63,555 nt of DNA from Flavobacteriales bacterium (GTDB taxonomy: Bacteria > Bacteroidota > Bacteroidia > Flavobacteriales_D > Sanyastnellaceae). Within the stretch, counting starts at the first letter, position 1; every line of letters begins with the position of its first letter. The notes beneath the pieces were generated by a model. That model saw only the letters and a list, made by a program, of their open reading frames with translations, was not told the origin of the DNA and made no database searches. Location of the stretch: contig JADFAK010000088.1 in assembly GCA_015665315.1 (NCBI GenBank), forward strand, positions 1 to 63,555, written 5' to 3'. This document shows positions 23,191 through 62,380 of this stretch, one piece after another. The position numbers and the translations under genes are program-made.

Positions 23191-23248
23191 CACCCCTGCC
23201 ATTTGGCCGCAGGCTTAATTTTGATAATCAATACCAATACATTCAACC

Positions 23249-39905: not shown

Positions 39906-42900
39906 TTACTTTTTCATCAAGGGAACAGACCACGATTGCTCGCCCATCTGGACATGTACAACATAGGTGCCGCGCGCGAGGTTTTCCAAGTTGGGGATGT
40001 CCTCAGAATTTACGAGAATCACTTGTCCGTTCGGAATGGAGCTTCCTCTTACATCGTGGCCAATTTGTTTGCCCAGTACGTCGAAAAGTCGGAGCGTATA
40101 ACTTCCTTTTAGGCTTTGGTTTAGCGCAAGCGCAAATGATTCTTCGAATGGATTCGGCCAAACATTCACGTCGCTGGATTGAAGCTCGTTTACGTTGGTA
40201 ATAATCTGTTCATACTCCTCACCTGGCGAACCAAAAATAAACTCCTGACTTACCCAGTTTTCACCCAATTCATTGGCCAGTGCAACATCGATCAGTTCGA
40301 TTGACTTGTCGTCTTGCACATTTACTGGCCACGGCGACACAATGTCCATAGGAACCAAGTCGGTCATCTCTTCGAGCGGATTGGTAATGAAAACATCCTC
40401 TCCATTTTGTGAGATTCCAAAATCCATATCGCCATACACTTCGATGGATGTGCCATAAAACGATTGGAAGCCTTCGGTATTGGCGCACACTACTTGATAG
40501 GTGTCGGCATCAATTGTAGCACCTTCTGGAAATTCAAAGCAACTGTTTCCCGCGCATAGATGCCATCCTGCTAGGTTGAGCTGATTGTCCGATGGGTTGT
40601 AAATTTCCACCCAATCCCCAAAATCATTTGCGCTTGTCGCTGAGTACATAATCTCCGTAATTATGGGAGAAGTAGGGGAGCCTGTAGAAGTGAAGAAAGC
40701 TGTCAAACTATCCGCTTCGGTGATGTCGATGAAAATCTCGTCGGTGAATGCTTCGCCGCCTTCCCATTCCCAGTGATCGAATACGTATCCGAAGTTCGGA
40801 ATAGCTTTTAGTCGTACATCAAGTTCTTCGAAATAGCGCCCGTCCCAAGGGAAATCGTGGACCGAAATGGTGTTCACTTCCATAAAACCTGCGGCGGCCG
40901 GAAAGGTATTCAGGTCAATCGTAATAATCTCACCCAGACCAAATTGATCGGTGAAATGCTGGCGCATGAATTCTGGACGATCGGTGATAAAAGTGTACAT
41001 ATATTCCAGTTCGTTCTCCCAAGAAGTGAGCGAGCCACCCCATTGATCGGTTTGCGCGGGAATATCTAAATGAATTTGATCTTGGTAGTCGATCAGCTTG
41101 GCGGCGACTGTTTCTTCTCTTAAATAGCTATTCAGCAAATCTGCAGCACGCGTACTGAGATCATCCACGAATTGTTCGTTTTCGACCATGCTCTGAAACA
41201 CGCCCGTTTCAACTACGCTTGTCCAACCTCCCCAATTTGAAAGTGAAAAGGAAAGTGCGTTCCAATCGGGAAATCCATGTGGGTAAGACGGGTAAAAACA
41301 GCCAATACCCCAATCGAGATCCCAAATAATCCAGCGCCACACATCCTCCTCGTAGGCACGCCAGAATTTCATGTTGTTGCTCAACCAATCTTGGTTTATG
41401 CCGTAGATCTCGGTACACTGGTAGTCGATGAAGTTGCGCAGATCGATCTCTGCGGCGTAGGTGTCAAATGCTTCGTCGTCACTCAAGTCTACATCGATGG
41501 CGAGGTCTTCCATGGCGTTCCAGTCGTCCCAATTTCCCGACCATTGTGTACGCGTATTCGGGGCAGTTGCCGAACGTTCTAGAAAGTCGACTTCCGTCTC
41601 GTCGTAGCCATAAAGCGACTCCAACCAATTGTTGTCTTGACGTTCTCGGAGGTTGTACAAGCCCCAATATTCACCGTTGATGTACACACAAACGGGCTTC
41701 CAATGCGAGGTGGCATAGGCTGGGTCCATGTCTTGCATGAGACTCGTAATCAATGCATCTCGCACTCCCGATCCATTTATTTCAACTCCGTCGTTTCCGG
41801 CATTTCGCAAGATGAGTCGCTTGTACTCGTCGAATGGTCGATTGTCAAAGAAGGGATATTTCAATTGCGTCTCGCCATATTCACCTCGGGCGTAAAGTCG
41901 TAAACTCTTTTGATCTCTGTAGTCAGGGGCATGGATTTTCATGCCTAGCGTTTGGTCGATGACCGATTCTCCTTCGTGGATATAAGCGAAATTCACGACG
42001 ATCTCCTGTCCGTTATTCGGATTCGAATCGATGCCTCCCGATCCACCAAAATCTTCCGGATCGCAGCTTATGGAGATAATGTCATTGGAGCACTCGGCCT
42101 CAAAAAGGTAAGCTGCAGTTGCTGTGAGCGAAGGCAGATAGTCGGGATGAAAAGCGCGCACCTTGATGTTGGTGTTCTCGATAAGGTAGATCTCGGAGCT
42201 ATATAAGTCGGACGTCTCATTCGGAGTCGTGCCGTCCAGTGTATAGCGAAGCTCAACTCCAGCAATGGGGTGGTTGATTGCTGTTTCTATCGACGGGTTA
42301 AAAGTTACTTGGCCCGGTACAGAGAATAGGGGCTTGTCCAAAGTCCCGAGAAAGAAATCCGTTGAATTCTCCAATCCTGGGGTGGGTTGGTTGAAGCTTA
42401 CGACTTCTGACAAACTATTGAGTCCGATTGAATTGTCTTGCCAGCCGAAAGTATAGTTCACAAAATGGACCAATTCTTCACCTGGAGAAGAAAGGTAGAC
42501 TGTTTCGCCTGATTGAGAAAGTTCAAAATCGACATGTGTTGAACCATCCCCCACTTCTTTGTCGGCCCACACCACCAAATAGCCAAAAGCAGGAATAATC
42601 AATTCGTCGTCGACGGCGATGAACTGGTGTTTGAGTAAATCTCCTCCATTGTCGGAAATGTACCAGTTGGCCAAATTGATTTCTTCGGCCGTTGTATTGG
42701 CAATTTCGATCCAATCGTCAAACTCGCCAGATTCGTCTACGTATGTCGAACTGTTCGATGCCTGAATTTCATTGATGACGAGATCTTGGCCAAAAAGTGG
42801 AGACGAAGCCAATAAGGCTAGGGCAGCTATCAATCCTAGTGTGAAGTAACATTTGCCGAAGGCTGAAAAAAACACATCCAATACATCTTTGAGTGAAAAG

Positions 42901-42941
42901 AGGGAAGTGTTCGAAGAGAAGTGAGCGTAATTTTCAGGCAT
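39906..42941 (-). CDS. Lamin-tail/CotH-type surface protein with T9SS sorting domain
   Basis: About 1011 residues from the ATG at 42941 (MPENYAHFSSNTSLF). A frame opening at 43037 is disfavoured because its first codons are the terminator hairpin of the preceding gene. The signal peptide is around YFTLGLIAALALLASSPLFG. Domain order: lamin-tail domain (LVINEIQASNSS, WIEIANTT); a chitobiase-like C-terminal domain (LRYTLDGTTPNET); a CotH kinase-like region with LRNAGND, NLRERQDNNWLE and WIIWDLDWGIG; a second lamin-tail domain (ITEIMYSATS, WVEIYNPSDNQ); and a T9SS type A tail (VWPNPFEESFALAL). CotH relatives in spores are protein kinases; activity here is unproven. Convergent with the ABC exporter. 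Confidence 0.88.
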   Translation of the reverse strand: MPENYAHFSSNTSLFSLKDVLDVFFSAFGKCYFTLGLIAALALLASSPLFGQDLVINEIQASNSSTYVDESGEFDDWIEIANTTAEEINLANWYISDNGGDLLKHQFIAVDDELIIPAFGYLVVWADKEVGDGSTHVDFELSQSGETVYLSSPGEELVHFVNYTFGWQDNSIGLNSLSEVVSFNQPTPGLENSTDFFLGTLDKPLFSVPGQVTFNPSIETAINHPIAGVELRYTLDGTTPNETSDLYSSEIYLIENTNIKVRAFHPDYLPSLTATAAYLFEAECSNDIISISCDPEDFGGSGGIDSNPNNGQEIVVNFAYIHEGESVIDQTLGMKIHAPDYRDQKSLRLYARGEYGETQLKYPFFDNRPFDEYKRLILRNAGNDGVEINGSGVRDALITSLMQDMDPAYATSHWKPVCVYINGEYWGLYNLRERQDNNWLESLYGYDETEVDFLERSATAPNTRTQWSGNWDDWNAMEDLAIDVDLSDDEAFDTYAAEIDLRNFIDYQCTEIYGINQDWLSNNMKFWRAYEEDVWRWIIWDLDWGIGCFYPSYPHGFPDWNALSFSLSNWGGWTSVVETGVFQSMVENEQFVDDLSTRAADLLNSYLREETVAAKLIDYQDQIHLDIPAQTDQWGGSLTSWENELEYMYTFITDRPEFMRQHFTDQFGLGEIITIDLNTFPAAAGFMEVNTISVHDFPWDGRYFEELDVRLKAIPNFGYVFDHWEWEGGEAFTDEIFIDITEADSLTAFFTSTGSPTSPIITEIMYSATSANDFGDWVEIYNPSDNQLNLAGWHLCAGNSCFEFPEGATIDADTYQVVCANTEGFQSFYGTSIEVYGDMDFGISQNGEDVFITNPLEEMTDLVPMDIVSPWPVNVQDDKSIELIDVALANELGENWVSQEFIFGSPGEEYEQIITNVNELQSSDVNVWPNPFEESFALALNQSLKGSYTLRLFDVLGKQIGHDVRGSSIPNGQVILVNSEDIPNLENLARGTYVVHVQMGEQSWSVPLMKK

Positions 42942-43007
42942 CAAATGGGTTTCAGTTTTACAAGTCTCAAAGGTAAGTAGGTCGGCGTGAAAATCGGAAT
43001 AGGCAGA

Positions 43008-43042
43008 CAAAAAAAAGCGGATGGGTTGATATCCCATCCGCT
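43008..43042 (-). terminator. Strong terminator after the choice-of-anchor-B gene
   Basis: On the minus strand AGCGGATGGG and CCCATCCGCT form a perfect 10-bp stem with a 7-nt loop, followed by eight T. It lies 22 bp after the stop at 43065 and overlaps the first codons of the longest frame of the next gene. Confidence 0.95.
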
Positions 43043-43064: not shown

Positions 43065-45785
43065 TTACGGACAAAATTGACCAAAGAGGCCAAGGAAGAC
43101 CAACAAGTCTGGTGTAGTGACAACTCCGTCGCCGTTGAGGTCGGTTGTACAAGCAGAAAGACAGCCAAATTCACCTAAGAATAACAACAAGTCTGGCGTG
43201 CTTATAATGCCGTCATTGTTGAAATCACCCAAACATGAGCCAGGTAATTCTTCGCTTGGATCAATTGTTCCGTTGCAGTTGTTGTCGATTCCCATCATCG
43301 TGCCAGGAGCACCGGGGTATTTCGTTCCATCGGCATCATCACAATCGGTGTTGTCCAGAACAAAACCAGCCATTGGGGCGCATAGTGAAACGCTGTTGGC
43401 AATGTCTCCGAATCCATCTGAATCCGTATCGGCATAGTAAGTTGTTGGAAAGGCACATGATCCACTATCGATCGTAGCGTTCGAATCGTAATTACAAGCT
43501 GTGGTGATCATACAGCCTTGGCAGCTAATGTATTCACAAGAGCCGTCGTCGATGGTCGCCGTTGAGTCGAAGTTACACGCAGCTGAATCGATGCAACCGG
43601 CACAACTCAAGAATTCACAACTTCCATCATCACATAGTGCGGATGCATTGTAGTTGCACGCAGAAGCGTTGGTACATCCATCAGGAAGAGCACAACTGCC
43701 GTCGTCAATCGTCGCTGTTGAATCGTAGTTGCACGCCGTAGAATTGGTACAACCGCTGCATGAAATGAATTCACAAGAACCATCATCACATCCCGCTGCA
43801 GCATCGTAGTTGCAGGCAGTCGAATCATTGCAACCAGGGAAGGTACATGATCCGTCATCAACTGTTGCCGTAGAGTCGTAGTTGCAAGCCGATGTGTCCA
43901 TACAGCCCTGAATACCGACAGGCAGACAAATATTATGTGTGACACTTGAACCGTAGTTGGCGGCCCCCATAACAGCAAGTACGTTTCCAAACGCGTCGGT
44001 TACAGTATAGTTTCCGTCAATGGCGCATCCCGAAGCAATTCCAGAAAGTCCATCTCCAAAGCTGTCATACATGGTGAAGTCGTAACATCCTGCGGTCAGA
44101 CAAAGCAATTCGTTGTAAGTTGTTTGGTTGCCATAGGCCGAACTTGGTCCTGCAGCAACAACGTTTCCGAGAGCATCTTGGATGTCCCAGCTAACTTCAC
44201 TTCCCCAACAATCGGTCAGAATTTCGATATCGATATCATAACAAGGATAGATACATGATCCATCGTCGATTGTAGCAGCTGAATTGTAGTTTGATGCTGC
44301 TGGATCGGTGCAACCCAATACATCATTGGTACAATCATAAACGGTGAGCGTAATGGTATCTGAATAATCGAAGTAAGTTCCTGTTCCTGAAACAACGATA
44401 TCAAAAACTCCACCAGCAGCCGGAAAGTTGCTCAATGTGAGAGTATACGAACCTGGTCCCACGCCATTTGCTGAGAAGGTTGCAGTAGCACCTGCAGGAA
44501 GTCCCGATTCGACGGCCAATGTTACGGGGCCTTCAAAGCCTACCATGACATCAACATCAATCACGGCATCGTCGGTGTGGCAAACGAATGCATTGGCAAT
44601 CGATGCATCCACGAATCGTGGCTTCAAAAGGAATAGTCCGCCTTCAATATGACTCACAGCAACTACACCTGAAGGGAAGTATGGATAGTTACTCCATGAT
44701 CCGTTAAATGCTGCGGAATTGCTTGAAGGATAAACGTCGAAAGAGGCAACCTCACTCAAGTTGGCATTGGCTACGTCCGTGATGTCCAAAATTCGCAAAC
44801 CAGCACGATAGTTACTTTGGTAGCAGAGGTTTCCATCTGTATACAAGTTGTGGTCAATGGCTGCTAGAGCTGAAACATAAGAACCAATGAGGACTGGAGC
44901 ATCAAGGTCTTGAACGTCCCAAATGTATGTCGTGGTGTTTGATACCGTTCCATTGTTTTCATCGAGCTCATCTCCAAGCAAGAAATATTTTTGATCAGGA
45001 GTAAGCCATCCTTGGTGAGAATAACTGGCGCCCGCGTATCCTGAAATACTTATCGTTTGAGCATCGGTAGGATCGGTTACGTTGGCAATAGTAAGTGCAT
45101 CTTCGTTGCTGTTAAAAGCAATTTCCTGACCGGCGTATGTGGCATCCGGACCCGTATAAATCACCACTTGAGCATCGTGCGTATATCCGTCCAAAGCATA
45201 GTCTCCAGCAAATGTTGGAGAAAGGGGGTTGCTGATATTAATAATGTGCAGACCACCACTCGAAAGGTTTGAACCTACCACATAGGCACGTCCAGTTGCT
45301 TCGTTGATGGCAATGTTGTGTGCATGTCCAAACAAGCCATAAAATGCATCGTTGGTAAACGTCTCTGGCGGAGCTGCGACATTTCTCAATCGAGTAAGAT
45401 CGAATACTTGCATTCCGTGACTTCCTGCCTCAGAAACGATAAAAGCGTGATTGTTGTACACCTTGACATCTCGCCATAACGAGTTGCCTGTTTGTGTTGG
45501 GAGGTATCCCAAGTAGAAAGGGTTTACTGGATCAGTGATATCAATAAAGGCGGTTCCGTTTTCCATTCCTAGCATGACATATTCTTTGTTGTCAAGCGGA
45601 TCGGTCCATCCCCAGATATCATTCATTTCTGGACTCCCAGGGAAATCTGAGGCGGGCATGACCGACATTAAATCCACATTCTCACAGGGGAAAATTCCGG
45701 CAAATCCTGCCTCACAAGGGGTTTGAGCTACGGACGCGAAAGAAAGTAGTATTGCGCATACCAGAGCTAGATTACGAAAACGCAT
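43065..45785 (-). CDS. Choice-of-anchor-B protein with GCTD repeats, MopE-like motif and dockerin-like C-terminus
   Basis: 906 residues, secreted (signal peptide MRFRNLALVCAILLSFASVA). Residues about 40-395 form a propeller-like choice-of-anchor-B domain (YVMLGMENGTAFIDITDPVN, then GHAHNIAINEATGRAYVVGS). A beta-sandwich follows, then seven Cys-rich units of the form GC-x-D-x-x-A-x-N-Y-(D/N)-...-DDGSC (about 495-790), with a CWGSEVSW/SFGDGLSG module between units one and two. Next is a copper-binding MopE-like acidic motif (DSDGFGDIANS, TDCDDADGTKYPGAPG, GIDNNCNG). The end is two EF-hand-like repeats (GDFNNDGIISTPDLLLFLGE and DLNGDGVVTTPDLLVFLGLF). It has no T9SS tail, so the dockerin-like pair may act in anchoring. 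Export route and partner are unknown. Confidence 0.85.
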   Translation of the reverse strand: MRFRNLALVCAILLSFASVAQTPCEAGFAGIFPCENVDLMSVMPASDFPGSPEMNDIWGWTDPLDNKEYVMLGMENGTAFIDITDPVNPFYLGYLPTQTGNSLWRDVKVYNNHAFIVSEAGSHGMQVFDLTRLRNVAAPPETFTNDAFYGLFGHAHNIAINEATGRAYVVGSNLSSGGLHIINISNPLSPTFAGDYALDGYTHDAQVVIYTGPDATYAGQEIAFNSNEDALTIANVTDPTDAQTISISGYAGASYSHQGWLTPDQKYFLLGDELDENNGTVSNTTTYIWDVQDLDAPVLIGSYVSALAAIDHNLYTDGNLCYQSNYRAGLRILDITDVANANLSEVASFDVYPSSNSAAFNGSWSNYPYFPSGVVAVSHIEGGLFLLKPRFVDASIANAFVCHTDDAVIDVDVMVGFEGPVTLAVESGLPAGATATFSANGVGPGSYTLTLSNFPAAGGVFDIVVSGTGTYFDYSDTITLTVYDCTNDVLGCTDPAASNYNSAATIDDGSCIYPCYDIDIEILTDCWGSEVSWDIQDALGNVVAAGPSSAYGNQTTYNELLCLTAGCYDFTMYDSFGDGLSGIASGCAIDGNYTVTDAFGNVLAVMGAANYGSSVTHNICLPVGIQGCMDTSACNYDSTATVDDGSCTFPGCNDSTACNYDAAAGCDDGSCEFISCSGCTNSTACNYDSTATIDDGSCALPDGCTNASACNYNASALCDDGSCEFLSCAGCIDSAACNFDSTATIDDGSCEYISCQGCMITTACNYDSNATIDSGSCAFPTTYYADTDSDGFGDIANSVSLCAPMAGFVLDNTDCDDADGTKYPGAPGTMMGIDNNCNGTIDPSEELPGSCLGDFNNDGIISTPDLLLFLGEFGCLSACTTDLNGDGVVTTPDLLVFLGLFGQFCP

Positions 45786-45898
45786 AGTTTGGTTATTTGG
45801 TTAATAAGGAGCCTAAAGATACGATTTTAAGCCGATATGATTATACCTTTTGCCTTCCGTACTTAGGTGGAATGGGAATTAGTCGAACAAAAACGGGT

Positions 45899-45906
45899 TA
45901 TTTTTG
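45899..45906 (+). promoter_or_regulatory. -7 box (TATTTTTG) before the TIGR01777 gene
   Basis: A perfect TAnnTTTG match 61 bp upstream of the ATG at 45967, in the divergent spacer. It lies in a T-rich stretch, so chance is possible. Confidence 0.35.
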
Positions 45907-45966
45907 TTTTAGTTTAGGCGCGAAATGCTTCCAATTTTTGGATGACCTAGCTTTAAGGAATCAAGT

Positions 45967-46881
45967 ATGAAAAGAATATTGTTGGCAGGTGGTACAGGAC
46001 AAGTTGGACAAGCGATTGTCAAGGAAGCAAGCTCGAAAGGGATTGTGTGTCACGTGCTTACACGAAATAATAACAAAGAGGATTCCGACTTGGTCCGATA
46101 TTTTTCTTGGAATCCAGCAGAAGGAATAATTGACCAGGCTTGTCTGCGTGAAGTCGATGTCCTCATAAACTTAGCCGGCATGTCCATTGACGTTAGGTGG
46201 ACTGAGGAGAACAAGAAAAAACTCATCAAGAGCCGTGTTGAGAGTACCCAATGTCTTGGAGAAGCCATGACATCACATACCAATCAAATCAAGACCGTTG
46301 TGAATGCCAGTGCGATTGGGGTGTATTTTCCTTCCTTCGATCTTCTCCATGAAGGCAGTCCGCGCTCGGCTTCTTTTTTAGGCCGTATGGCACAAGCGTG
46401 GGAGAGAAGCACAGAATTTTATCCACCTACTGCCCATATTGTATGTGTGCGCATCGGTTTGGTGCTTGGGGCTACATCTAAAATTTTTGAAAAGATCAGG
46501 CCTACGGCCAAATGGGGAATTGGAGCCGTTCTTGGCACAACAGACCAATATGTGTCATGGATACACGAAGTTGATCTCGCACGTGCAATTTTACACTTAG
46601 GTGATAAAAAGAATCCTGAACGCGAATACAATACGGTGTCGCCGAACCCCGTAAAAGCACCGCTATTCTACAAAGCAATCCACCGCGTTTTCGCCGAGCC
46701 TAAACTCATGCTCAAGGTTCCGGCGGGGTTGATTCGATTGGTTTTCAAGGAAAAAAGCGAGCTCCTACTCAGCTCTCACAGGGTTTCACCTGCACTTCTG
46801 GCTCAAGATTTTGAATTCGAATATCCAACTATCGAATCGGCCGTGGAGGAAATTTCGAAACACGCCGACAAGGTTAAGTAA
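45967..46881 (+). CDS. TIGR01777-type NAD(P)-dependent epimerase/oxidoreductase (YfcH-like)
   Basis: A 304-residue atypical short-chain dehydrogenase. The N-terminal Rossmann motif is LAGGTGQVGQAIV, followed by the family-typical VDVLINLAGMSIDVRWTEEN and the segment RVESTQCLGEAM. In place of a usual YxxxK site it has ASAIGVYFPSFD; the rest is VCVRIGLVLG and YVSWIHEVDLARAI. The C-terminal DUF1731-type end is VKAPLFYKAIHRVF, then PAGLIRLVF. The substrate is unknown; the E. coli relative YfcH is likewise unassigned. It is cytosolic. 155 bp separate it from the CoA-transferase gene. Confidence 0.92.
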   Translation: MKRILLAGGTGQVGQAIVKEASSKGIVCHVLTRNNNKEDSDLVRYFSWNPAEGIIDQACLREVDVLINLAGMSIDVRWTEENKKKLIKSRVESTQCLGEAMTSHTNQIKTVVNASAIGVYFPSFDLLHEGSPRSASFLGRMAQAWERSTEFYPPTAHIVCVRIGLVLGATSKIFEKIRPTAKWGIGAVLGTTDQYVSWIHEVDLARAILHLGDKKNPEREYNTVSPNPVKAPLFYKAIHRVFAEPKLMLKVPAGLIRLVFKEKSELLLSSHRVSPALLAQDFEFEYPTIESAVEEISKHADKVK

Positions 46882-47036
46882 GACCGTAACAAGTTGGTGA
46901 GGTGGAGGGAGAAATCCTCCAACGGATCCTCGTTTTGAGATGCTCCTTCGGGTGTGCACATCCTGTTGGGTAAGATCAACTATAGACATGAGTTTTGTCT
47001 GCGTACGTATTCAAACTTTCCCTCATATTTGTGCTT

Positions 47037-48113
47037 ATGAATCAAATTCTGAAGGGTACACAAGTACTGGAGTTGAGCAGCGTTCTCGCTGGTCCTTCAG
47101 TAGGCATGTTCTTGGCCGAACTCGGGGCCGAAGTGATTAAGATAGAGTCGCCTAGTGGAGATGTGACGCGCACATGGAAGCTTGGTTCGGAAGATGAGAC
47201 GAGTACGATTTCTGCCTACTTTTCCAGTATAAACTATCGGAAGACGTACTTGCACAAGGACTTGAAAGATCCGAAAGAGTTGAGGGATGTTCAGCAACTT
47301 GCTCAGGCATCAGATATTGTCCTCTCCAATTTTCGAGGAAGTCGGGGTAATCGTTTTGGACTGGATTACGCGACCTTGAGCCAGGAGAATAAAGACCTTA
47401 TTTATTGCGAGCTTCACGGTTTTCCGGATGACCACGATCGAGCGGCCTATGATTTGGTTTTACAAGCCGAGACAGGATGGATGAGCATGAACGGGACTCC
47501 AGAATCTGGTCCACTTAAAATGCCCGTTGCTCTGATGGACGTGCTCGCGGCCCACCACATGAAACAAGCCATTCTTATCGCACTCTTCCATAGAGAACGA
47601 ACAGGAGCGGGCGCTTGGATCAAATGTTCGCTTCAAGAATCTTCGCTCAGCAATCTGGCTAACCAATCATCGAACTACTTAATGGCTGGTGCAGTGGCCG
47701 AATTGCGCGGTTCCTTGCATCCCAATATTGCTCCTTATGGAGAGACTTTTACATGCTCCTGTGGGAAAGCTATTGTCCTGGCCGTCGGCAGCGATCACCA
47801 GTTTCAAACGATGTGTCAGCTCATTGGTGCACCTGAATTGAATGCGGATGACCGATTTCACTCGAACCAGGATCGCCTGGTACATCGTGCGGACATGTTC
47901 GCAGCCTTGAAGCCATTCTTTGGAAAGCTCGAACGAACTGAATTGCTGGCCAAATTTCACGATCACGGGGTACCAGCTGGAGCGGTCCTCGACATGCGTG
48001 ATGCCTTGAATACCCCTGCAGCACAGCGCTTGATTCGGGAAGAAGTCATTGACGGACAAGCGACGAAGCGATTGACTTCTTTGCCATTTGATTTTACCTC
48101 GTCCATCGGATAA
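47037..48113 (+). CDS. CaiB/BaiF-type (family III) CoA transferase
   Basis: 358 residues from the ATG at 47037 (MNQILKGTQVLELSSVLAGP). An in-frame ATG at 46995 would add 14 residues unlike the family's start. Features: SVLAGPSVGMFLAELGAEVI, the R-rich FRGSRGNRFGLDYATLSQEN, YCELHGFPDD, and the catalytic Asp region PVALMDVLAAHHMKQAIL. The protein is somewhat shorter than the usual 390-410 residues. Family III enzymes move CoA between carboxylic acids through an aspartyl-CoA thioester. The acyl substrate cannot be deduced. It is followed 10 bp later by a class III sirtuin gene. Confidence 0.9.
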   Translation: MNQILKGTQVLELSSVLAGPSVGMFLAELGAEVIKIESPSGDVTRTWKLGSEDETSTISAYFSSINYRKTYLHKDLKDPKELRDVQQLAQASDIVLSNFRGSRGNRFGLDYATLSQENKDLIYCELHGFPDDHDRAAYDLVLQAETGWMSMNGTPESGPLKMPVALMDVLAAHHMKQAILIALFHRERTGAGAWIKCSLQESSLSNLANQSSNYLMAGAVAELRGSLHPNIAPYGETFTCSCGKAIVLAVGSDHQFQTMCQLIGAPELNADDRFHSNQDRLVHRADMFAALKPFFGKLERTELLAKFHDHGVPAGAVLDMRDALNTPAAQRLIREEVIDGQATKRLTSLPFDFTSSIG

Positions 48114-48123
48114 ACAGACCTAG

Positions 48124-48810
48124 ATGAAGAAATTAGTTGTTTTGACAGGAGCCGGCATGAGCGCGGAAAGTGGAATCCCCACATTTCGGGGAGCCGATGG
48201 ATTGTGGGAAGGCCATCGCATTGAGGATGTAGCCTCGCCCAATGGGTGGGTAGCCGACCAAGACTTGGTCCTCCATTTCTACAACCTACGGCGGAAAAAT
48301 ATCATGAAAGCCGAACCCAATAAAGGACACCAAATTCTTGCCGAACTTGACGAATACTACGACCTTCATATCATCACGCAGAATATCGACGACTTGCATG
48401 AGAGAGCAGGCTCAAAAAAGGTACTGCACTTGCACGGCGAAATCAGAAAGAGTAGGAGTACGCTAGATCCGAATTTGGTCTATAACATCGAAGGATGGGA
48501 ACTGCGTCGAGGAGATAAATGTGAAAGAGGGTCTCAACTCCGACCGCACATCGTGTGGTTTGGTGAAGCCGTTCCCATGATCGAACCTGCCGCAGAAATT
48601 TGTCAGCAAGCAGATGCAATTGTCGTCGTAGGCACGTCCATGGTTGTATATCCAGCCGCTAGTTTAATTCACTTTGCACCAACTGAAATCCCGAAGTTCA
48701 TCATCGATCCGAACATCCCTCATGTGAGTGGAATAAGTAATCTTACTCCCATTCCTATGGGGGCTAGCGATGGCTTAGCTGCCCTTCGAGAGATGCTGGG
48801 AAAGAGGTAA
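48124..48810 (+). CDS. cobB: Class III sirtuin, NAD-dependent protein deacylase lacking the zinc finger
   Basis: A 228-residue Sir2-family lysine deacylase. Motifs: VLTGAGMSAESGIPTFRGAD, catalytic HLHGE (His), TQNIDDLHERAG, VVVGTSMVVYPAA. The FYNLRRKN segment has the Tyr-x-x-Arg pair that marks class III enzymes preferring succinyl, malonyl or glutaryl groups. The four zinc Cys of typical sirtuins are absent; the insert reads STLDPNLVYNIEGWELRRGD and contains a single Cys, as in other Bacteroidota homologues I recognise. It follows the CoA transferase after 10 bp, suggesting a link between CoA thioester pools and acyl-lysine removal (inference). Convergent with the beta-helix gene. Confidence 0.92.
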   Translation: MKKLVVLTGAGMSAESGIPTFRGADGLWEGHRIEDVASPNGWVADQDLVLHFYNLRRKNIMKAEPNKGHQILAELDEYYDLHIITQNIDDLHERAGSKKVLHLHGEIRKSRSTLDPNLVYNIEGWELRRGDKCERGSQLRPHIVWFGEAVPMIEPAAEICQQADAIVVVGTSMVVYPAASLIHFAPTEIPKFIIDPNIPHVSGISNLTPIPMGASDGLAALREMLGKR

Positions 48811-48814
48811 ATCT

Positions 48815-50806
48815 TTATTCCGTAAACGTTGACGATTCCTGCCCAGGGACTAATCCGAAGGTGCCTTGGCAATCGGCTCCGTAGAACATCAAAAAGGTAA
48901 GGATATCGAGAATGTCCGTAGCACCATCCGAGTTTACGTCAGCTGAACAATTATTGGTACCGTCGTCTATACACCCATAGTCCCCTAAGAAGGCCAATAG
49001 ATCCAAGATGTCGATGACGCAATCATTGTTCTGATCCAAGATGCTAAATTGGTCGGTCACCACATAGATATCCTGCTGCTGCGTCACACCATAGGCCCCA
49101 TTGCTGTCTTTCGCTCGGAGGTAGATAGTGTGCTGACCAGGAGGAACCCCCGTAAGTTCAAATTGGACATCAGAATCAAAAAGATCTTCAGCTCCAGATA
49201 ATAAGATAGGATTTCCTTCACCATAGCCTGGATCAACATCTACGAAGTATTCAAATGCCGACAAGGTTGGTAGTTCCTCTTGGTCTTCTAGGACAAGCAT
49301 GGGCGTCACATAAGTCGTGCCTTCCACACCAAATTCATCTTTGGCTCGAACACTTAGGTAGTACAATCCAGGGGCATAACCGCTTAAGTCATACGTAATC
49401 GTGAAAAAGCCTAGATCACTTCCTCCATCTTGATTATCCAAGATATTCGCTGTCGCAAAGTCGGCACTTCCTGCTACATCTGAAATGACGTAAGAAATCG
49501 AGGCCAATGACGGTAGTGGCGGGATTGGATCTACTACAAAGGTTGTTTCTTCCGTTCCACTCCATAGTCCGCTTTGAGTTCTAACTCGAAATCCAATAAC
49601 ATGAGCGCCAGTCAATGTTGTCGCAATATTGGCTCCAAAGAATCCATCAACGGTGTTTCCAGGAGTTAAGGTCACAGGTACCCCTCCCCCAAATCCTGGG
49701 TCGTTATCTACAAAATACTCGCCCTCAATTATGATATCCGTTCCTGAATCGATCACCGCCGAGTAAGTTACGGGTAAGAGATAGGAGAATTCAGTGTTTT
49801 CGGCGATGAATAGGTTTGTGACGAAAGGGAAGTCACTTTGGCCAGAAAGTCCATATCCTCCGAAATTGAACGGGCCAATATTCGTACCATCGTCAGCTAC
49901 ACCGTCGGCAAAAGAACCTGGGTATGTCTCATATTGTCCGTCCAGGGTAACATTTCCAGCAAATAATAAACTTGGATCTATTTCTGTCTGCACATTGGAG
50001 CCCAGCAAGATTTGCATTTGGTCATTCGGATTTCCTTCCGCATCAAAATCAGTGGCTACGGGCGCTCCCGTGACAAAAATATCGTTGTTGAAATTGCACA
50101 AGTCGAAGTCCTCAAATGTCAGGTCGACGAAGATGCAGTTGTGGAATAGGGAGGCCTCCGCAACGACAAATCCATTGGCCATCACGTTGTGATTGAAGTC
50201 TGTTCCAGACGATAAATTTTGAAATACTACGTATTGTCCTGGCGCTTGTGGAGACTCATGAGCAATAATGTTAAAGCTCACATTTCCATTGTTACTGTTG
50301 TTCAGCAAAAGCGGGATGTCTGCTGGGTTGGGCGAACTGATCAGATTTTGCTCGATGTCATAGCCCAGAACATTGTTCAACTCCAGCTGTGAGATGAAGT
50401 TGTGATCTATTTGCGCGAAGTCGCTATTCACTTGTAAATCATTGATCGAGAGTCCACGTAAAGTCGTGCCGGCCGCTCCGGGTCCTAAGTTTATAGTTGA
50501 GCAAAGTGCCTCGTCGACAACGTTGTAACCTGGCTTGTTATCGGCAATGAGGTATCCTGGTCCGAAAACGACGAGTGGAATATCGATTGTGGCTGAATAA
50601 GTCGCGAAGAAGGTCTCCGAAATAAACTGAGAATTGGCTTCTAGGTAAATGGTATCCCCGTCAAAAGCTGCGTCCACGGCAGACTGAAAATCTTGGTAGA
50701 GGGCAGTTGTGTTGGGATGAATATTCACGCGATGTATAGCGCTCCAACTCGTTGAGGAAATCAACAAGCCGACTACTAGCAGAAAAGTATATTTATACAT
50801 ATTCAT
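48815..50806 (-). CDS. Secreted beta-helix-type protein with dockerin-like C-terminus
   Basis: 663 residues with a signal peptide (MNMYKYTFLLVVGLLISSTS). Residues about 25-240 show the N/D/I-rich ladder pattern of a right-handed beta-helix (LQVNSDFAQIDHNFISQLEL, VSFNIIAHESPQ). Three or four similar Ig-like units with FVDNDPGFGGGVPVTL and FVDVDPGYGEGNPILL follow. The end is a pair of EF-hand-like units, DQNNDCVIDILDLLAFLGDY and DVNSDGATDILDILTFLMFY, as in the protein at 43065. It has no T9SS tail. A glycan-active or adhesive role is possible; no catalytic residues are recognised. It is adjacent to the similar but shorter gene at 50825, 18 bp away on the same strand. Confidence 0.75.
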   Translation of the reverse strand: MNMYKYTFLLVVGLLISSTSWSAIHRVNIHPNTTALYQDFQSAVDAAFDGDTIYLEANSQFISETFFATYSATIDIPLVVFGPGYLIADNKPGYNVVDEALCSTINLGPGAAGTTLRGLSINDLQVNSDFAQIDHNFISQLELNNVLGYDIEQNLISSPNPADIPLLLNNSNNGNVSFNIIAHESPQAPGQYVVFQNLSSGTDFNHNVMANGFVVAEASLFHNCIFVDLTFEDFDLCNFNNDIFVTGAPVATDFDAEGNPNDQMQILLGSNVQTEIDPSLLFAGNVTLDGQYETYPGSFADGVADDGTNIGPFNFGGYGLSGQSDFPFVTNLFIAENTEFSYLLPVTYSAVIDSGTDIIIEGEYFVDNDPGFGGGVPVTLTPGNTVDGFFGANIATTLTGAHVIGFRVRTQSGLWSGTEETTFVVDPIPPLPSLASISYVISDVAGSADFATANILDNQDGGSDLGFFTITYDLSGYAPGLYYLSVRAKDEFGVEGTTYVTPMLVLEDQEELPTLSAFEYFVDVDPGYGEGNPILLSGAEDLFDSDVQFELTGVPPGQHTIYLRAKDSNGAYGVTQQQDIYVVTDQFSILDQNNDCVIDILDLLAFLGDYGCIDDGTNNCSADVNSDGATDILDILTFLMFYGADCQGTFGLVPGQESSTFTE

Positions 50807-50824: not shown

Positions 50825-51886
50825 TTACCTGCGGGATTTTCCCTTGACGACGGCTGTGGATCCGCCACTTTGAGTGCCTTGGACACTACCGTTGTATTTG
50901 GCAATAGAAGGTAGTTTAGGCATTCCAGAAAGTACATAGGTCGTCACTCCACTATACATACCAATGTCGTTTCCATCGGCTCCTGCGTTGGTGGCCGGAT
51001 TTCCTGTGTTGGGATCGGTGTTCCATGCGTTCAATTGATACTTTCCATCACGACTTACACCATCCATCAAGGTGAAGCAATAGACCGAATCCGGTTCGTG
51101 CTCAGGATCACCTCCATAATTGCTGTTCGCTGCTCCGCCCCAGGCCGTTAAAAAAGTTGAACGTGCTAAATTGAAACTCACTGTCAAACTTGTTGATGCG
51201 GGCATAATCTCGCTGTCTTCAAAGTAGTTGTTCTGAACTACGGCATTGTGAAACAGGTTGTCTGGCTCACCGAAGAACAAGTTGTTCAATATGACTCCTG
51301 AACCAGTGGTAACACGAACATTGTGCGTGCCAGCCGCATTCGTATTGTTCATGAAGTTGTTCTTGATGATGAAATTCGTCGCGTTGGCGATATCGACCAA
51401 GGCACCGGCATTCGAACCTTCAATAAAATTTTGAGAAATGAATGGAGTAATTATGGGCCCCGTAGTTCCCAATCCCAAATGCGATGTGATGTTGCAACGA
51501 GTTAAGCGAACGTTGTTGGCTTCTACCAAGACTGTCTCAATTTCAATTCCAGAAACCAAAACTAAATCGGCTGTAATGGTCAATTGATCGATCTTTGCCG
51601 TCCGCAAATCGGCCTGCGTACAGTCATTGTCACCCAAAAAGTATCCAGTGCCAAAGATGCGTACCATTACGTCTACAGTAATATTACCGCCATCGTAGGG
51701 TATCAAAGAATGCTCAAGAATAATTGAGTCGCCTATCGCTACGTGATTTGCCAATACATCGGCAAGCGAACTGTGAACTATTATTTCGTCTGCTATGCCA
51801 AGATTGTTGTTTACACGAACTTGTGTTGCTAGTCCAACTAGCGGGCAGAAGAAAATGAGAAACAGAATTGTTGAAGTGGATCTCAT
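50825..51886 (-). CDS. Secreted beta-helix-type protein, short relative of the 48815 gene
   Basis: 353 residues with a signal peptide (MRSTSTILFLIFFCPLVGLA). The segment IVHSSLADVLANHVAIGDSI, the line VRIFGTGYFLGDN and the ladder ITSHLGLGTTGPIITPFISQ parallel the N-terminal third of the next gene downstream (YQDFQSAVDAAFDGDTIYLE, VVFGPGYLIADN), so the two are likely paralogues. It lacks both the Ig-like repeats and the dockerin-like tail and ends in a basic, Gly/Ser-rich KGKSRR. No catalytic residues are recognised. It is the first of the two-gene unit; the 158-bp gap to the adenylate cyclase gene probably carries the promoter. Confidence 0.65.
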   Translation of the reverse strand: MRSTSTILFLIFFCPLVGLATQVRVNNNLGIADEIIVHSSLADVLANHVAIGDSIILEHSLIPYDGGNITVDVMVRIFGTGYFLGDNDCTQADLRTAKIDQLTITADLVLVSGIEIETVLVEANNVRLTRCNITSHLGLGTTGPIITPFISQNFIEGSNAGALVDIANATNFIIKNNFMNNTNAAGTHNVRVTTGSGVILNNLFFGEPDNLFHNAVVQNNYFEDSEIMPASTSLTVSFNLARSTFLTAWGGAANSNYGGDPEHEPDSVYCFTLMDGVSRDGKYQLNAWNTDPNTGNPATNAGADGNDIGMYSGVTTYVLSGMPKLPSIAKYNGSVQGTQSGGSTAVVKGKSRR

Positions 51887-58342: not shown

Positions 58343-59290
58343 ATGGATATTTCCATTGTAATACCTCTTTTTAACGAGGAGGAATCTTTGAATGAATTGC
58401 ACGAGTGGATTGTGAAAGTTGCCCAACGCGAAGGACTATCTTACGAGGTCGTTTTTGTTGATGACGGCAGTTCTGATAAGTCATGGGAGGTGGTTCAAGC
58501 GCTACGCGCAAATGACCCTTGTGTGCGTGGAATCCGCTTTCGTCGCAACTACGGCAAGTCGGCCGCGCTTCATTCAGGCTTCCAACTATGTGAAGGAGAT
58601 ATCGTAATTACGATGGATGCCGACCTCCAGGATTCACCTGAGGAGATTCCTGAGATGGTCAAAATGATCCGTACACTCGGATTTGACTTGGTGTCAGGTT
58701 GGAAAAAAAAGCGCTATGATCCAATCAGCAAGACTATTCCTACCAAGTTGTACAATTGGGCTACACGAAGGATGACAGGCATTCGATTGCATGATTTTAA
58801 TTGCGGACTCAAAGCATACCGACTGGATGTCGTCAAGAGTATTGAAGTCTACGGTGAGATGCATCGCTACATTCCCGTCATCGCCAAGCGCGAAGGATTT
58901 GTGAAAATAGGCGAGAAGACAGTTCAGCATCAGGCTAGGAAGTATGGGACAACCAAATTTGGAATGGAACGCTTCGTAAATGGCTTTCTTGACCTACTCA
59001 CCATCACCTTCATATCGAAGTTCGGAAAGAAACCGATGCACCTTTTTGGAACCTTGGGGATGGTGATGTTTATGCTCGGATTAGCTTCCTTTCTCTGGAT
59101 AGGTGGTTCCAAGTTATACTGGTTGTGGAAGGATGTTCCCGCGAAGAACATTGCTGAGCAATCGACTTTCTTTATTGCGCTCACGGCTATGATTTTGGGA
59201 ACATTGTTGTTCTTGGCTGGATTTTTAGGTGAATTGATTTCAGCCAATAATCCATCTCGCAACAAGTACAAGATCAAGGAAGAAATTTAG
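58343..59290 (+). CDS. Family 2 glycosyltransferase, polyprenyl-phosphate type (DPM1/ArnC-like)
   Basis: 315 residues from the ATG at 58343; a GTG two codons earlier is possible. The N-terminal catalytic domain has VIPLFNEEESLNELHEWI, FVDDGSSDKSWEV, RRNYGKSAALHSGF, the DxD-type MDADLQDSPEEI, and HDFNCGLKAYR. Two C-terminal helices (about 230-253, 268-292) anchor it in the inner membrane. This is the architecture of enzymes that move a sugar from a nucleotide onto undecaprenyl phosphate. It is likely cotranscribed with DUF4199. The last four bases overlap the convergent T9SS gene's stop. Confidence 0.92.
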   Translation: MDISIVIPLFNEEESLNELHEWIVKVAQREGLSYEVVFVDDGSSDKSWEVVQALRANDPCVRGIRFRRNYGKSAALHSGFQLCEGDIVITMDADLQDSPEEIPEMVKMIRTLGFDLVSGWKKKRYDPISKTIPTKLYNWATRRMTGIRLHDFNCGLKAYRLDVVKSIEVYGEMHRYIPVIAKREGFVKIGEKTVQHQARKYGTTKFGMERFVNGFLDLLTITFISKFGKKPMHLFGTLGMVMFMLGLASFLWIGGSKLYWLWKDVPAKNIAEQSTFFIALTAMILGTLLFLAGFLGELISANNPSRNKYKIKEEI

Positions 59291-62250
59291 AGTTTTATGA
59301 ACTGTTTGGACTGCCTGCCAAAAGGGGAGTCGACAGACAGATAATATACACCTGCCGAATTTTCGTGCATCGGTAATGCGATATGTGGGTTGGCTATTTC
59401 GGCGTCATAGATGGCGTCGATTACCATTCTTCCCAGCGAATTATAAACCCGAATATGGTATCGAACTCCGGCCCTGAGATGCTGCAGGTCGAAGTCCAAT
59501 TGCGTGCCGGCCGTTTGGTCGATATTGCCGATGAAATCAGTATCAAAATCTTCCGAGTCGTTGAATTCAAAGGACTCAAAAATACAGTTACCATCGGAAA
59601 TCGTCGCGAATGGATTGTAGTTAGTAGCCATTGGATCCATACACCCGTCTACAGGACATGAGGCATTCACGGCAATTATATCCATTGTAGAATAACCTGT
59701 CTCGAGCGTTCCGGAACCAATTAAATCTCCCCCGAACACGATTTCGTATTCTGAGCCATTCCAACCATCTCCAAATTGATCGGTGAGATGAAGCATATAA
59801 CAGCCGTCGGCCAAGCACATGTCTTCGACCCAGGTAGTATTGTCGTTGTAGGAGGAGCCTTGGTAAAGAACGTCTTCTGCCATGTCGGTGAAAGACCAAC
59901 CAATCTCATTCCCGAAATAAGCTACATGCATGTTCAATTCAACGAGGTTTTCAGTGCAGTCTAGCAGTTCACAGGAACCATCGTCGACAGTAGCTTCGGG
60001 ATTGTAATTCAAGGCTGACTCGTCTGTACACCCAGGTATACAAGCGTAAATTTGCACGGCGGTCAAAGAAACCAAGTTAGGGGCGTAAACAGCCACATTC
60101 GTTAAGTTATCGGCCGGAGCTGTGAACGGAACAAACCAAGAGATACCGGAAATAATGTTGTCAGGAAGGTCGTAAATCCATTCGTCAAGCGAGTTGTCGG
60201 CGTTTGTAATGTGGATTGATTCGAGCGGACAATAACCTGAAGTTGTACTATTTATCTCAAATCCTTGGATCAATGTATCATTGGTCAGTTCGCAGATCCA
60301 GGATATGGCAATCTCTTCAATCGAACAGGGATCGTACAAGCATGAGTTATCGTCACATTCCGCCATGCTGTCGTAGTTGCTTGCAAATGGATCTGTGCAT
60401 CCGATCATTTGACCGCAGGTTGAAGCATAAAAAATCGCATTGTAAACAGAGTTGCCCATGCTTACTTCCAGCATGTGTCCAGAGCAAGTAAGCAGCTCTT
60501 CGTCGAGAATTAAAACCGTCTCTCCATTCGCAGGAAGCGCGACGTCATCCGATGTCAGTGTCCATTCTACTTCCAGCGTTTCCAATTCGGAAATGGTGAT
60601 TTCCCAGTCGTCGCAGTATCCGGAATAGGTGGGGGTTACAAACAGACCAGGCTGCCAGAACTGACCATCTTCATCCCACAAACACCAACTGACGGCAAGA
60701 TCATCTAAAAAGCAGGGCTCGTACTGACATGAACCGTCCTCTACAGTTGCGAGTATGTCAAAATTTATCGCTTCGGGGTCGGTACAACCTGGAGGTTCTG
60801 GGCCTTCAAAAGTTGCGCCTATCCATTCGAAAGTACTACCATCTTCGCGCACTACGTGCAAATTTAATTGTCCAGATAGTTGTCCGTCGGTGGTGACCTG
60901 ACCTAAGAGGATTTTGCCATCGGCATTGGCTATCGTATTAGCAGCTCCCTCTTCACTAATCCAGCCTCCTTGTTGCAAGTTGAAAAGCGCCGATTGAAAA
61001 CCAAATGAAGTCTGAAAAGTGTTGGAAGGTTCTACATCGTAGTGAAATACGGGTGTCCCTGGATCGGTGCTGGTTTCACGACCTATGGTGATGAAGCTAT
61101 CGTATTGAATATTTGGGGATTCATCGAACAGACTGGGGTCAAGGTCTCCTCCTTCGATCCCACCATCGTTGGTGTTCCAGAAGTCGCCAGTGCTCTCAAT
61201 TTGGACGGGGTCGATATTGTATAAACTATAGACCTGTGTAATGGCATCTGCTGCGCCATCCATATGGGCCCAAATACGATAAGTTGAAAAATTCGATGGA
61301 TAATTCTCTACTGTGGAATCGTCATCGTAGTAGGCCTCCACTTCCAAATAGTAGTCGCCATAAACGCAATCTTCACTCCATTGACCGTTGTCTGAAGTAT
61401 AATTCAATGCTAGGGGATCGGTGCAACTTGCAAACTCATCCGTGCGAAAAATCACATCGACAAAGGAGAAGGTTGACAATGGATCAATGGCCGGTTTGAC
61501 ATTGAAACTCAGTCGGCCTTCCAAAGCCGCTGACGTAGTTATCTGGGCAATAAGAACACGGTGATCTTCCCCGAGAAATCCGTTTTCGAAATCGGGAATG
61601 GTGATCCATATGCCAGATTCGAATTCAAGATCGGCTGTTCCGTCCAAAAAAGACCAATGGAAGGCCTCGTTGGGTGTTCCGGCATCGGCAAGGAAGTATC
61701 CCGGGTCGAGGTTGTTTTCCATACCTATAGTTAGGAAGGAGTCATAAGCCAAAGCTGGCTGAGATTCGAAAATGAAGGGCCCAATATCGAGTGCAGTAAT
61801 CCCTCCTTCACTGTGATTCCAGAATTCTCCTGTTCCATTGGTGGTGATATAGCCCGTTGAGGTCGTTAATTGGTCGGAAAAGACACTTTGTAGTAAGTCC
61901 AGGGAATCTTCACCGTACACATATATTCTGTAAGTGTGATAGCCTTCGGGGTAGCCTGGTACCGTTCCATCATAAGCGTAGTATCGTTCGATTTCTATGC
62001 CGTAGTTTCCGAAGAGGCAGGCGTCGCCGGGGTCCATTTGCGCAAGCGGATTGAAATTGGCGGCCGTGGTGTCGAGGCATCCAAGTATGTATTCACAAGT
62101 GCCGTCGTCGTCTGTCGCGTTTGAATCGAAATTGATGGCAATGGAATCGGTACATCCAAATATTTGGCCGCAGGCTTGATCGCCAAAGCACAATAGCAGC
62201 ACAATGGACAATAGGAATGGAACCAATATTTGGTTTAGTAATTCACGCAC
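59287..62250 (-). CDS. Large GCTD-repeat surface protein with T9SS sorting domain
   Basis: About 987 residues from a GTG at 62250, chosen because it opens a signal peptide (VRELLNQILVPFLLSIVLLL). The longer frame from 62367 starts inside the upstream terminator. It contains about seven Cys-rich units such as GCTDSIAINFDSNATDDDG, GCTDPEAINF and GCTDESALNYNPEATVDDGS. Between them are two similar 130-residue domains that begin YGIEIERYYAYDGTVPG and YYLEVEAYYDDDSTVEN. There is also one GNEIGWSF/QFGDGWNG module. The last 80 residues (LDFDLQHLRAGVRYHIRVYN to the end) form a T9SS type A sorting domain. No enzymatic motif is seen. The start codon is uncertain. Confidence 0.78.
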   Translation of the reverse strand: MRELLNQILVPFLLSIVLLLCFGDQACGQIFGCTDSIAINFDSNATDDDGTCEYILGCLDTTAANFNPLAQMDPGDACLFGNYGIEIERYYAYDGTVPGYPEGYHTYRIYVYGEDSLDLLQSVFSDQLTTSTGYITTNGTGEFWNHSEGGITALDIGPFIFESQPALAYDSFLTIGMENNLDPGYFLADAGTPNEAFHWSFLDGTADLEFESGIWITIPDFENGFLGEDHRVLIAQITTSAALEGRLSFNVKPAIDPLSTFSFVDVIFRTDEFASCTDPLALNYTSDNGQWSEDCVYGDYYLEVEAYYDDDSTVENYPSNFSTYRIWAHMDGAADAITQVYSLYNIDPVQIESTGDFWNTNDGGIEGGDLDPSLFDESPNIQYDSFITIGRETSTDPGTPVFHYDVEPSNTFQTSFGFQSALFNLQQGGWISEEGAANTIANADGKILLGQVTTDGQLSGQLNLHVVREDGSTFEWIGATFEGPEPPGCTDPEAINFDILATVEDGSCQYEPCFLDDLAVSWCLWDEDGQFWQPGLFVTPTYSGYCDDWEITISELETLEVEWTLTSDDVALPANGETVLILDEELLTCSGHMLEVSMGNSVYNAIFYASTCGQMIGCTDPFASNYDSMAECDDNSCLYDPCSIEEIAISWICELTNDTLIQGFEINSTTSGYCPLESIHITNADNSLDEWIYDLPDNIISGISWFVPFTAPADNLTNVAVYAPNLVSLTAVQIYACIPGCTDESALNYNPEATVDDGSCELLDCTENLVELNMHVAYFGNEIGWSFTDMAEDVLYQGSSYNDNTTWVEDMCLADGCYMLHLTDQFGDGWNGSEYEIVFGGDLIGSGTLETGYSTMDIIAVNASCPVDGCMDPMATNYNPFATISDGNCIFESFEFNDSEDFDTDFIGNIDQTAGTQLDFDLQHLRAGVRYHIRVYNSLGRMVIDAIYDAEIANPHIALPMHENSAGVYYLSVDSPFGRQSKQFIKL

Positions 62251-62310
62251 AATGAGATAAGGCCCTTTATAATGAACACGAATAAATGATGGAAACCCTT
62301 GGGTAAGAAA

Positions 62311-62380
62311 CAAAAAAACTGCCCCGAATGTGCAAACAAAGGAGAGAATTATCTCCAGTGCTCGCACCTTCGGGGCAGTG
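62311..62380 (-). terminator. Branched terminator after the right-edge T9SS gene
   Basis: On the minus strand ACTGCCCCGAA..GTGC pairs with GCAC.TTCGGGGCAGT, followed by seven T. An inner GGAGATAATTCTCTCC hairpin sits in the loop. It begins about 21 bp after the stop at 62401. Confidence 0.92.

Follow-up and report, generated by a model that had tools for sequence, protein, structure and literature searches.

Two predicted secreted proteins of a member of the Flavobacteriales family Sanyastnellaceae, encoded on the reverse strand of a 63,555-nucleotide stretch (contig JADFAK010000088.1; "the window" below means the whole of this analysed DNA), end in a short module with two EF-hand units and do not carry the C-terminal tail of the type IX secretion system (T9SS). 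The contig is contig 15 of a draft genome of 4.6 Mb (219 contigs, 99% complete), in which we found the same module on dozens of otherwise unrelated proteins. On balance, we think it probable that the tail is a GC-type dockerin that replaces the T9SS tail on Sec-exported proteins and is held by a common envelope acceptor other than a Pfam cohesin. The computed basis for this reading is the C-terminal place of the tail, signal peptides recognised by a simple rule, a predicted dockerin fold, the lack of a type A T9SS tail on the same proteins and the sharing of cores between the two kinds of tail.

Identity and architecture of the tail

In protein 1 (906 amino acids, 43065..45785, reverse strand) the tail occupies residues 850-906 (43068..43238, reverse strand) and was matched by the tail profile A1 with an E-value of 3.7e-26. 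Two D-x-N-x-D-G-x6-D loops, each followed by L-L-x-F-L, are spaced there by 28 residues. In protein 2 (663 amino acids, 48815..50806, reverse strand) the tail lies at residues 590-647 (48866..49039, reverse strand), the loops are spaced by 32 residues and 16 more residues stand behind the tail, a slight departure from the terminal rule. Profile A1 was built from 26 tails of the genome, and the tail of protein 1 is itself one row of it. Twenty-four further tails of the genome served for a leave-out profile that excluded both window tails, and it scored the latter at 82.4 bits (protein 1, the match extending to the final residue) and 47.1 bits (protein 2), compared with 13.1 bits for the best of 2000 shuffled tails, so that the two EF-hand units described in the first-pass annotation at the ends of these proteins were recovered independently of their own sequences. 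With the same profile, none of the other reading-frame segments of at least 40 residues in the window (752 scanned) matched at E 0.1. The predicted calcium loops, assigned by reading the sequence, are D854-D865 (43191..43226) and D882-D893 (43107..43142) in protein 1, and D591-D602 (49001..49036) and D623-D634 (48905..48940) in protein 2, all on the reverse strand. Aspartates at loop positions 1, 5 and 12, as in the rule for type I dockerins, are found throughout A1: D6 and D17 of the first loop and D34 and D38 of the second are invariant, and D10 and D45 are conserved in at least 90% of the rows.

Judged by its sequence, the tail belongs to a kind of domain already catalogued in NCBIfam as NF041540 ("GC-type dockerin domain-anchored protein"), because this model matches it and because its predicted fold is that of a dockerin. 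All 61 two-unit tails scanned matched NF041540 at E ≤ 1. The tail of protein 1 alone reached 36.3 bits, above the cut-off of 29, and the model was not reported when protein 1 was scanned in full length at E ≤ 1. Scores below the cut-off were given by the tail of protein 2, with 19.6 bits, and by a pair of single-unit tails, with 19.7 and 21.6 bits. When the genome was searched with NF041540, the best 14 of 76 candidates were considered and all 14 were over the cut-off, and 13 of 66 full-length tail open reading frames (ORFs) matched at E ≤ 1e-3. The model, which is presumably founded on members outside Bacteroidota, is less sensitive than A1. The Pfam dockerin family PF00404 (gathering score 22.9) matched 53 of the 61 two-unit tails at E ≤ 0.1, with 25.0 bits for the tail of protein 1 alone and 15.7 bits for the whole protein, and with 18.0 and 14.7 bits, respectively, for protein 2. 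An AlphaFold2 (AF2) model of the protein 1 tail had a pLDDT (predicted local distance difference test) of 93.5. The best Foldseek match of this model was 2y3n_B (TM-scores 0.87 and 0.85, root-mean-square deviation (rmsd) 1.1), and dockerin or cohesin-dockerin entries made up the top 26 of 38 rows; VIA-align, in a comparison that covers the families listed there, superposed the model on 2y3n_B with Z 10.1 and rmsd 1.2 over 57 aligned residues. The likeness to dockerins proposed from the window was upheld in this way by sequence models and by the predicted fold.

The nearest solved structure is 2y3n_B of Bacteroides cellulosolvens, and with type I and cellulosomal dockerins the tails share two D-x-N-x-D-G-x6-D loops and two helices. 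They differ from type I dockerins by four cysteines in most two-unit tails, by their near-invariable C-terminal place, by the existence of single-unit forms and by a genome without a cohesin above cut-off. With T9SS C-terminal domains they share a terminal, modular position on many unrelated exported cargoes, whereas the predicted helical EF-hand fold is distinct from the Ig-like fold described for T9SS type A domains (PMC10202324). The "planctosome" proposed for planctomycetes likewise gives dockerin modules a role beyond cellulose degradation, but there cohesins are encoded as well (PMC6461901), and none was above cut-off here. The phrase "GC-type dockerin" occurred in no paper of the literature searched, and the available parts of PMC6461901, PMC10202324 and PMC11557425 hold nothing on a GC-type tail. 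New here are the massive use of such tails in one T9SS-bearing family, the single-unit "half" tails, the paired outer cysteines, the cores with either tail and the inverse relation to T9SS numbers.

The search of the genome with A1 gave 77 matches at E ≤ 1, of which 76 (E ≤ 9e-5) sit in 75 ORFs; these include copies and fragments, namely the C101 pair, the two halves of a frameshifted C55 copy and one gene whose end is lost at a contig border. The consensus of the tail is CxGDFNxDGxxNxxDLLxFLGxFGCxxDCxxDLNGDGxVNxxDLLxFLGxFGxxC, and it is uniform at the ends of dozens of otherwise unrelated proteins (66 aligned). Among the 74 tail ORFs with a stop codon, the tail ends at most 6 residues from the stop in 71 and at most 2 residues in 68; the three non-terminal exceptions are protein 2, one frameshifted half and a C81 ORF with a degenerate second unit. 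An internal position of the motif, which the first-pass annotation had named as counting against its reading if seen across relatives, occurred once in this genome, as a single unit in a C17 ORF that bears a terminal unit besides. The tail ORFs also appear to encode exported proteins: our simple heuristic rule found a signal peptide in 59 of the 63 whose start lay inside the fetched stretch and in 2 of 14 cytosolic-type control genes; of the four ORFs missed, three have by eye what resembles a signal peptide, the remaining one being a frameshifted half. The cargo comprises repeat proteins of up to 3372 amino acids, extracellular-type peptidases (M36, M43, M12B and S8), SprB repeats and choice_anch_B cores, and of these SprB repeats, M36 and choice_anch_B carry T9SS tails elsewhere. 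In a Pfam scan of 66 of the 75 tail ORFs, the 25 commonest families included no glycoside hydrolase; 22 rarer families fall outside that list. Two ORFs of 98-101 amino acids (L082:969-1271 and 2311-2604; G000 C5, about 34.6-36.2 kb) contain little beyond a signal peptide and a dockerin pair, and both stand directly upstream of a gene with a full tail. Duplicated tail-bearing gene ends were seen at L095 (G000 C55:20337 and 23193-23361, the second C55 copy being frameshifted) and at L074 (C101:13676 and 12067).

Seventy-five matches were parsed into forms, one with two distant units being set aside; 46 tails are double and 28 are single. In double tails, a cysteine before unit 1 and a cysteine after unit 2 are both present in 33 of 46, both absent in 10 and found one alone in 3 (Fisher p 1.7e-7, uncorrected for paralogy), and the stretch between the units has exactly two cysteines in 41 of 46. 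Because the outer cysteines come and go together and two more lie between the units, the pattern suggests a predicted disulphide clasp of both ends and a second small loop. Both flanking cysteines occur in 26 of the 28 single units. A model of a single unit shows just one loop and one helix (pLDDT 89.4, predicted TM-score 0.48), and the hydrophobic positions of this helix are conserved, though there is no second helix against which it could pack; the helix would thus have to contact some other surface.

Dockerin and T9SS tails in the genome and in relatives

Neither window protein matched the T9SS type A model TIGR04183 at E ≤ 1, in agreement with the first reading of these genes; nor did either match the type B model TIGR04131 at E ≤ 1, the presence of this model in the scanned library being unconfirmed. 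Type A tails of the genome were collected with TIGR04183 (cut-off 23 bits), and none of the best 150 of 303 candidates lay inside a dockerin-tail ORF. When our own T9 profile was run on the 75 tail ORFs, the best 15 matches were all internal and none was at a C-terminus. The same was observed in the fetched loci L155-L297, which come almost all from relatives (L286 is from this genome) and in which the count was confined to ORFs with a stop: in all 90 distinct tail ORFs no more than 10 residues follow the tail, none of the 90 has a T9SS match, and 28 other ORFs end in one. Co-occurrence of the motif with a T9SS tail, which would have spoken against an alternative signal, was therefore found in no ORF of the genome or of the fetched loci.

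The same cores can carry either tail. Choice-of-anchor cores are a class named for ending in different anchors, and this genome holds choice_anch_B paralogues with a dockerin (in the window) and with a T9SS tail (C25:8119-9213 with C25:9277-9498). In a set of 113 choice_anch_B ORFs, in which some genes were fetched twice, 61 had a dockerin tail and 35 had no tail of either kind; a T9SS match was seen in 12, of which nine are strong (E ≤ 3.3e-9) and three marginal, the other 5 being without a stop; three of those with a dockerin gave a weak T9 domain (E 0.003-0.05), and none of the 90 distinct fetched-locus ORFs passed. At C5:11102, an M36 metallopeptidase core with a dockerin tail was matched by the "T9SS-dependent M36" model with E 1.7e-238 and 794 bits, the cut-off being 885. 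Many of the "neither" choice_anch_B ORFs bear a third recurrent tail of about 40 residues, approximately LVK..D..GRE......F.LY.DGS.EK.F, which stands at ORF ends in L180, L184, L186, L192, L205, L212, L214-L217, L224, L234, L235 and L241, and for two examples of which no NCBIfam model matched at E ≤ 1.

The tail is concentrated in the family of the window, where all but three of the 114 genomes (111) have a match at E ≤ 1e-3. At E ≤ 1e-6, matches occur in 137 of the 399 genomes of the order, namely in 109 of the 114 inside the family and in 28 of the 285 outside it; the latter 28 have 1-4 mostly weak matches each, the best of which is in G145 (E 1.7e-21). Among 395 sampled Bacteroidota, NF041540 was found at E ≤ 1e-4 in 3 genomes, two of them from this family. 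Within the family, the genera g3 and g6 have 0-2 weak dockerin matches per genome, g8-g12 have 4-14, g2 has 8-27, and the other genera have from 19 to at least 57. T9SS tails were present in 18 of 18 family genomes examined, and at similar genome size they numbered 85-97 in six g3 and g6 genomes versus 42-73 in seven genomes of g17, g18, g20 and g21. Per Mb, dockerin and T9SS tails are inversely related (rho -0.66 for 15 genomes and -0.71 for 8 genera, leaving out G030, G046 and G047, whose lists reached their limits; T9SS tails of G038 and dockerin tails of tail-rich genomes likewise enter as lower bounds), and their sum is 34-52 per Mb in each genus.

A putative acceptor and the rival readings

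From these results, a hypothesis regarding the function of the tail may be proposed: a calcium-loaded, disulphide-clasped C-terminal module of about 57 residues would serve as both address and handle on surface or extracellular proteins. The cargo would be exported by the Sec pathway, the tail would fold and load calcium outside the cytoplasm, and it would then dock to a common acceptor of the outer envelope that is absent from g3 and g6. The calcium binding, disulphide pairing, docking, surface location and the acceptor itself are what we infer from the loops, the cysteines and the distribution of the tails. We would go further only tentatively, as a possibility somewhat short of even: the whole family may display surface proteins by two parallel codes, one of them the T9SS tails and the other a calcium-dependent dockerin tail that has a non-cohesin acceptor of its own; cargo may have moved between the codes in evolution, and a half-dockerin may be complemented in trans, either by the acceptor or by another half-dockerin.

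Several observations weigh against the GC-type dockerin as a replacement tail with a common acceptor. Pfam cohesin (PF00963) is not above cut-off anywhere in this genome and is above it in 5 of the 114 family genomes, although divergent cohesins could escape such a search; the window had been noted to lack a cohesin, and this held for the whole genome, where two weak matches were seen, the better of which (L031, 20.9 versus 24.1 bits) lies among Ig-like repeats by eye. Across the family, cohesin occurrence is by eye unrelated to tail counts. One protein of G042, a genome among these five (L275, G042:C45, about 54.7-56.3 kb), combines four cohesin-like repeats with a GC-type dockerin tail and resembles an adaptor scaffoldin, but a profile of its four repeats had no match in the other 113 family genomes; with 5 of 114 genomes by Pfam and 1 of 114 by these repeats, cohesin as the common partner was rejected. 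PorP/SprF as a dedicated carrier was rejected too, since all 114 genomes have it, with 1-18 matches apiece, in numbers unrelated by eye to those of the tails. A comparison of 20 dockerin with 20 T9SS loci gave no convincing recurrent neighbour gene (ABC ATPase 4 versus 3, response regulator 4 versus 1, beta-propeller sensor 4 versus 2, transporter-like family 2 versus 1). Further, a lipobox-like signal peptide in 4 of the 63 tail ORFs would make the tail unnecessary for anchoring there; the single-unit tails, two of which are the C55 frameshift halves and one the C81 ORF with its degenerate second unit, depart from the classical two-hand dockerin; the trade-off with T9SS tails is uncorrected for phylogeny and rests partly on lower-bound counts; and mutual exclusion would equally follow if both tails simply require the C-terminus. 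The C88 tail ORF, with a whole-protein T9 E-value of 2.3e-9, appeared to combine both tails, but its T9 matches are partial and internal, not terminal (best domain 7e-5 at residues 320-360), and this case was dismissed. The suggestion that the motif mediates docking or acts as an alternative sorting signal is accordingly the best-supported reading of the tail, but the search for a partner has returned none, and docking, calcium binding and localisation would follow from the sequence and model by extrapolation.

It is also conceivable, though we rate it as unlikely, that the tail forms an additional class of T9SS signal, in which case this secretion system would recognise the dockerin fold, as it does the C-terminal domains of types A, B and C, and would export and anchor the cargo. 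The transport of M36, choice_anch_B and SprB repeats by T9SS tails elsewhere, the T9SS tails in every family genome examined and the existence of more than one family of C-terminal domains (PMC10202324) would agree with this. Because the six g3 and g6 genomes, of two genera, are rich in T9SS tails and nearly free of dockerins, the T9SS alone does not entail the dockerin tail; the rarity of NF041540 in the sampled Bacteroidota, seen with a model of lower sensitivity than A1, and the PorP/SprF numbers, which by eye do not track those of the tail, also speak against it. Quite unlikely, in our estimate, is a merely stable C-terminal calcium cap that protects or rigidifies the protein without sorting or docking. 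EF-hand caps can be purely structural, and the fruitless acceptor searches would suit one, but a uniform consensus on so many unrelated proteins, its place on cores that otherwise carry a known sorting tail and the hydrophobic helix positions kept in single-unit tails without a second helix speak against a cap.

A periplasmic retention signal that docks to a periplasmic scaffold seems less probable still: disulphides and calcium would also suit the periplasm, and the tail ORFs showed no recognisable T9SS tail, yet the very long repeat proteins, the extracellular-type peptidases and the cores that carry T9SS tails elsewhere point outward. Least of all do we expect a classical, cellulosome-like cohesin-dockerin complex. 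The dockerin fold and the scaffoldin-like G042 protein recall one; against it stand the lack of Pfam cohesin above cut-off in this genome and in 109 of 114 family genomes, the restriction of G042-type repeats to one genome and the absence of glycoside hydrolases from the commonest cargo families.

The GC-type dockerin as a replacement tail would have practical consequences. In Bacteroidota genomes, surface and secreted proteins are usually identified by their T9SS tails. If the reading is true, some members of the family entrust as many as half of their tailed exported proteins to a second, calcium-based tail (the two g20 genomes counted hold about 23 dockerin and about 23 T9SS type A tails per Mb), and secretome predictions for such genomes overlook much of the surface. 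As the family holds both tail-rich and nearly tail-free genera, the function of a catalogued domain becomes testable.

Neighbouring genes and minor observations

The loci in which the response regulator and the beta-propeller sensor were seen near dockerin-tail genes are L317, L320, L324 and L327, and this recurrence may be due to chance. In L276 (G014:C40), a cohesin-like domain precedes an internal pair of dockerin-like units (WPGDLNHDGVVSVADILPIG...) that belongs to another type and by eye is not GC-type.

The first-pass annotation had also stated that the secreted neighbours of the two proteins end in T9SS domains, and this was true only in part. The contrast neighbour at 39906..43037 (reverse strand), a CotH/LTD protein (PF08757, PF00932), has a T9SS type A tail (TIGR04183, 25.9 bits versus the cut-off of 23), and the protein at 62401-63540 passes clearly (44.3 bits), whereas that at 59287-62367 is slightly below the cut-off (21.7 bits) and that at 50825-51886 has no match. 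The N-terminal part of the latter resembles that of protein 2 by eye, and the protein matched none of the tail families.

Protein 2, which as a whole has no Pfam match above cut-off, consists by inspection of a heuristic signal peptide, a beta-helix-like N-terminal part and Fn3-like repeats, followed by the dockerin tail. Protein 1 begins with a heuristic signal peptide and a choice-of-anchor B core (TIGR04312, E 3.7e-151, residues 23-388), which is followed by GCTDxxACNY-type repeats, a MopE-type metal motif (PF11617, residues 814-842) and the GC-type dockerin tail; the closest named records to its core are in Flavobacteriales metagenome assemblies, some of them labelled Crocinitomicaceae or Cryomorphaceae.

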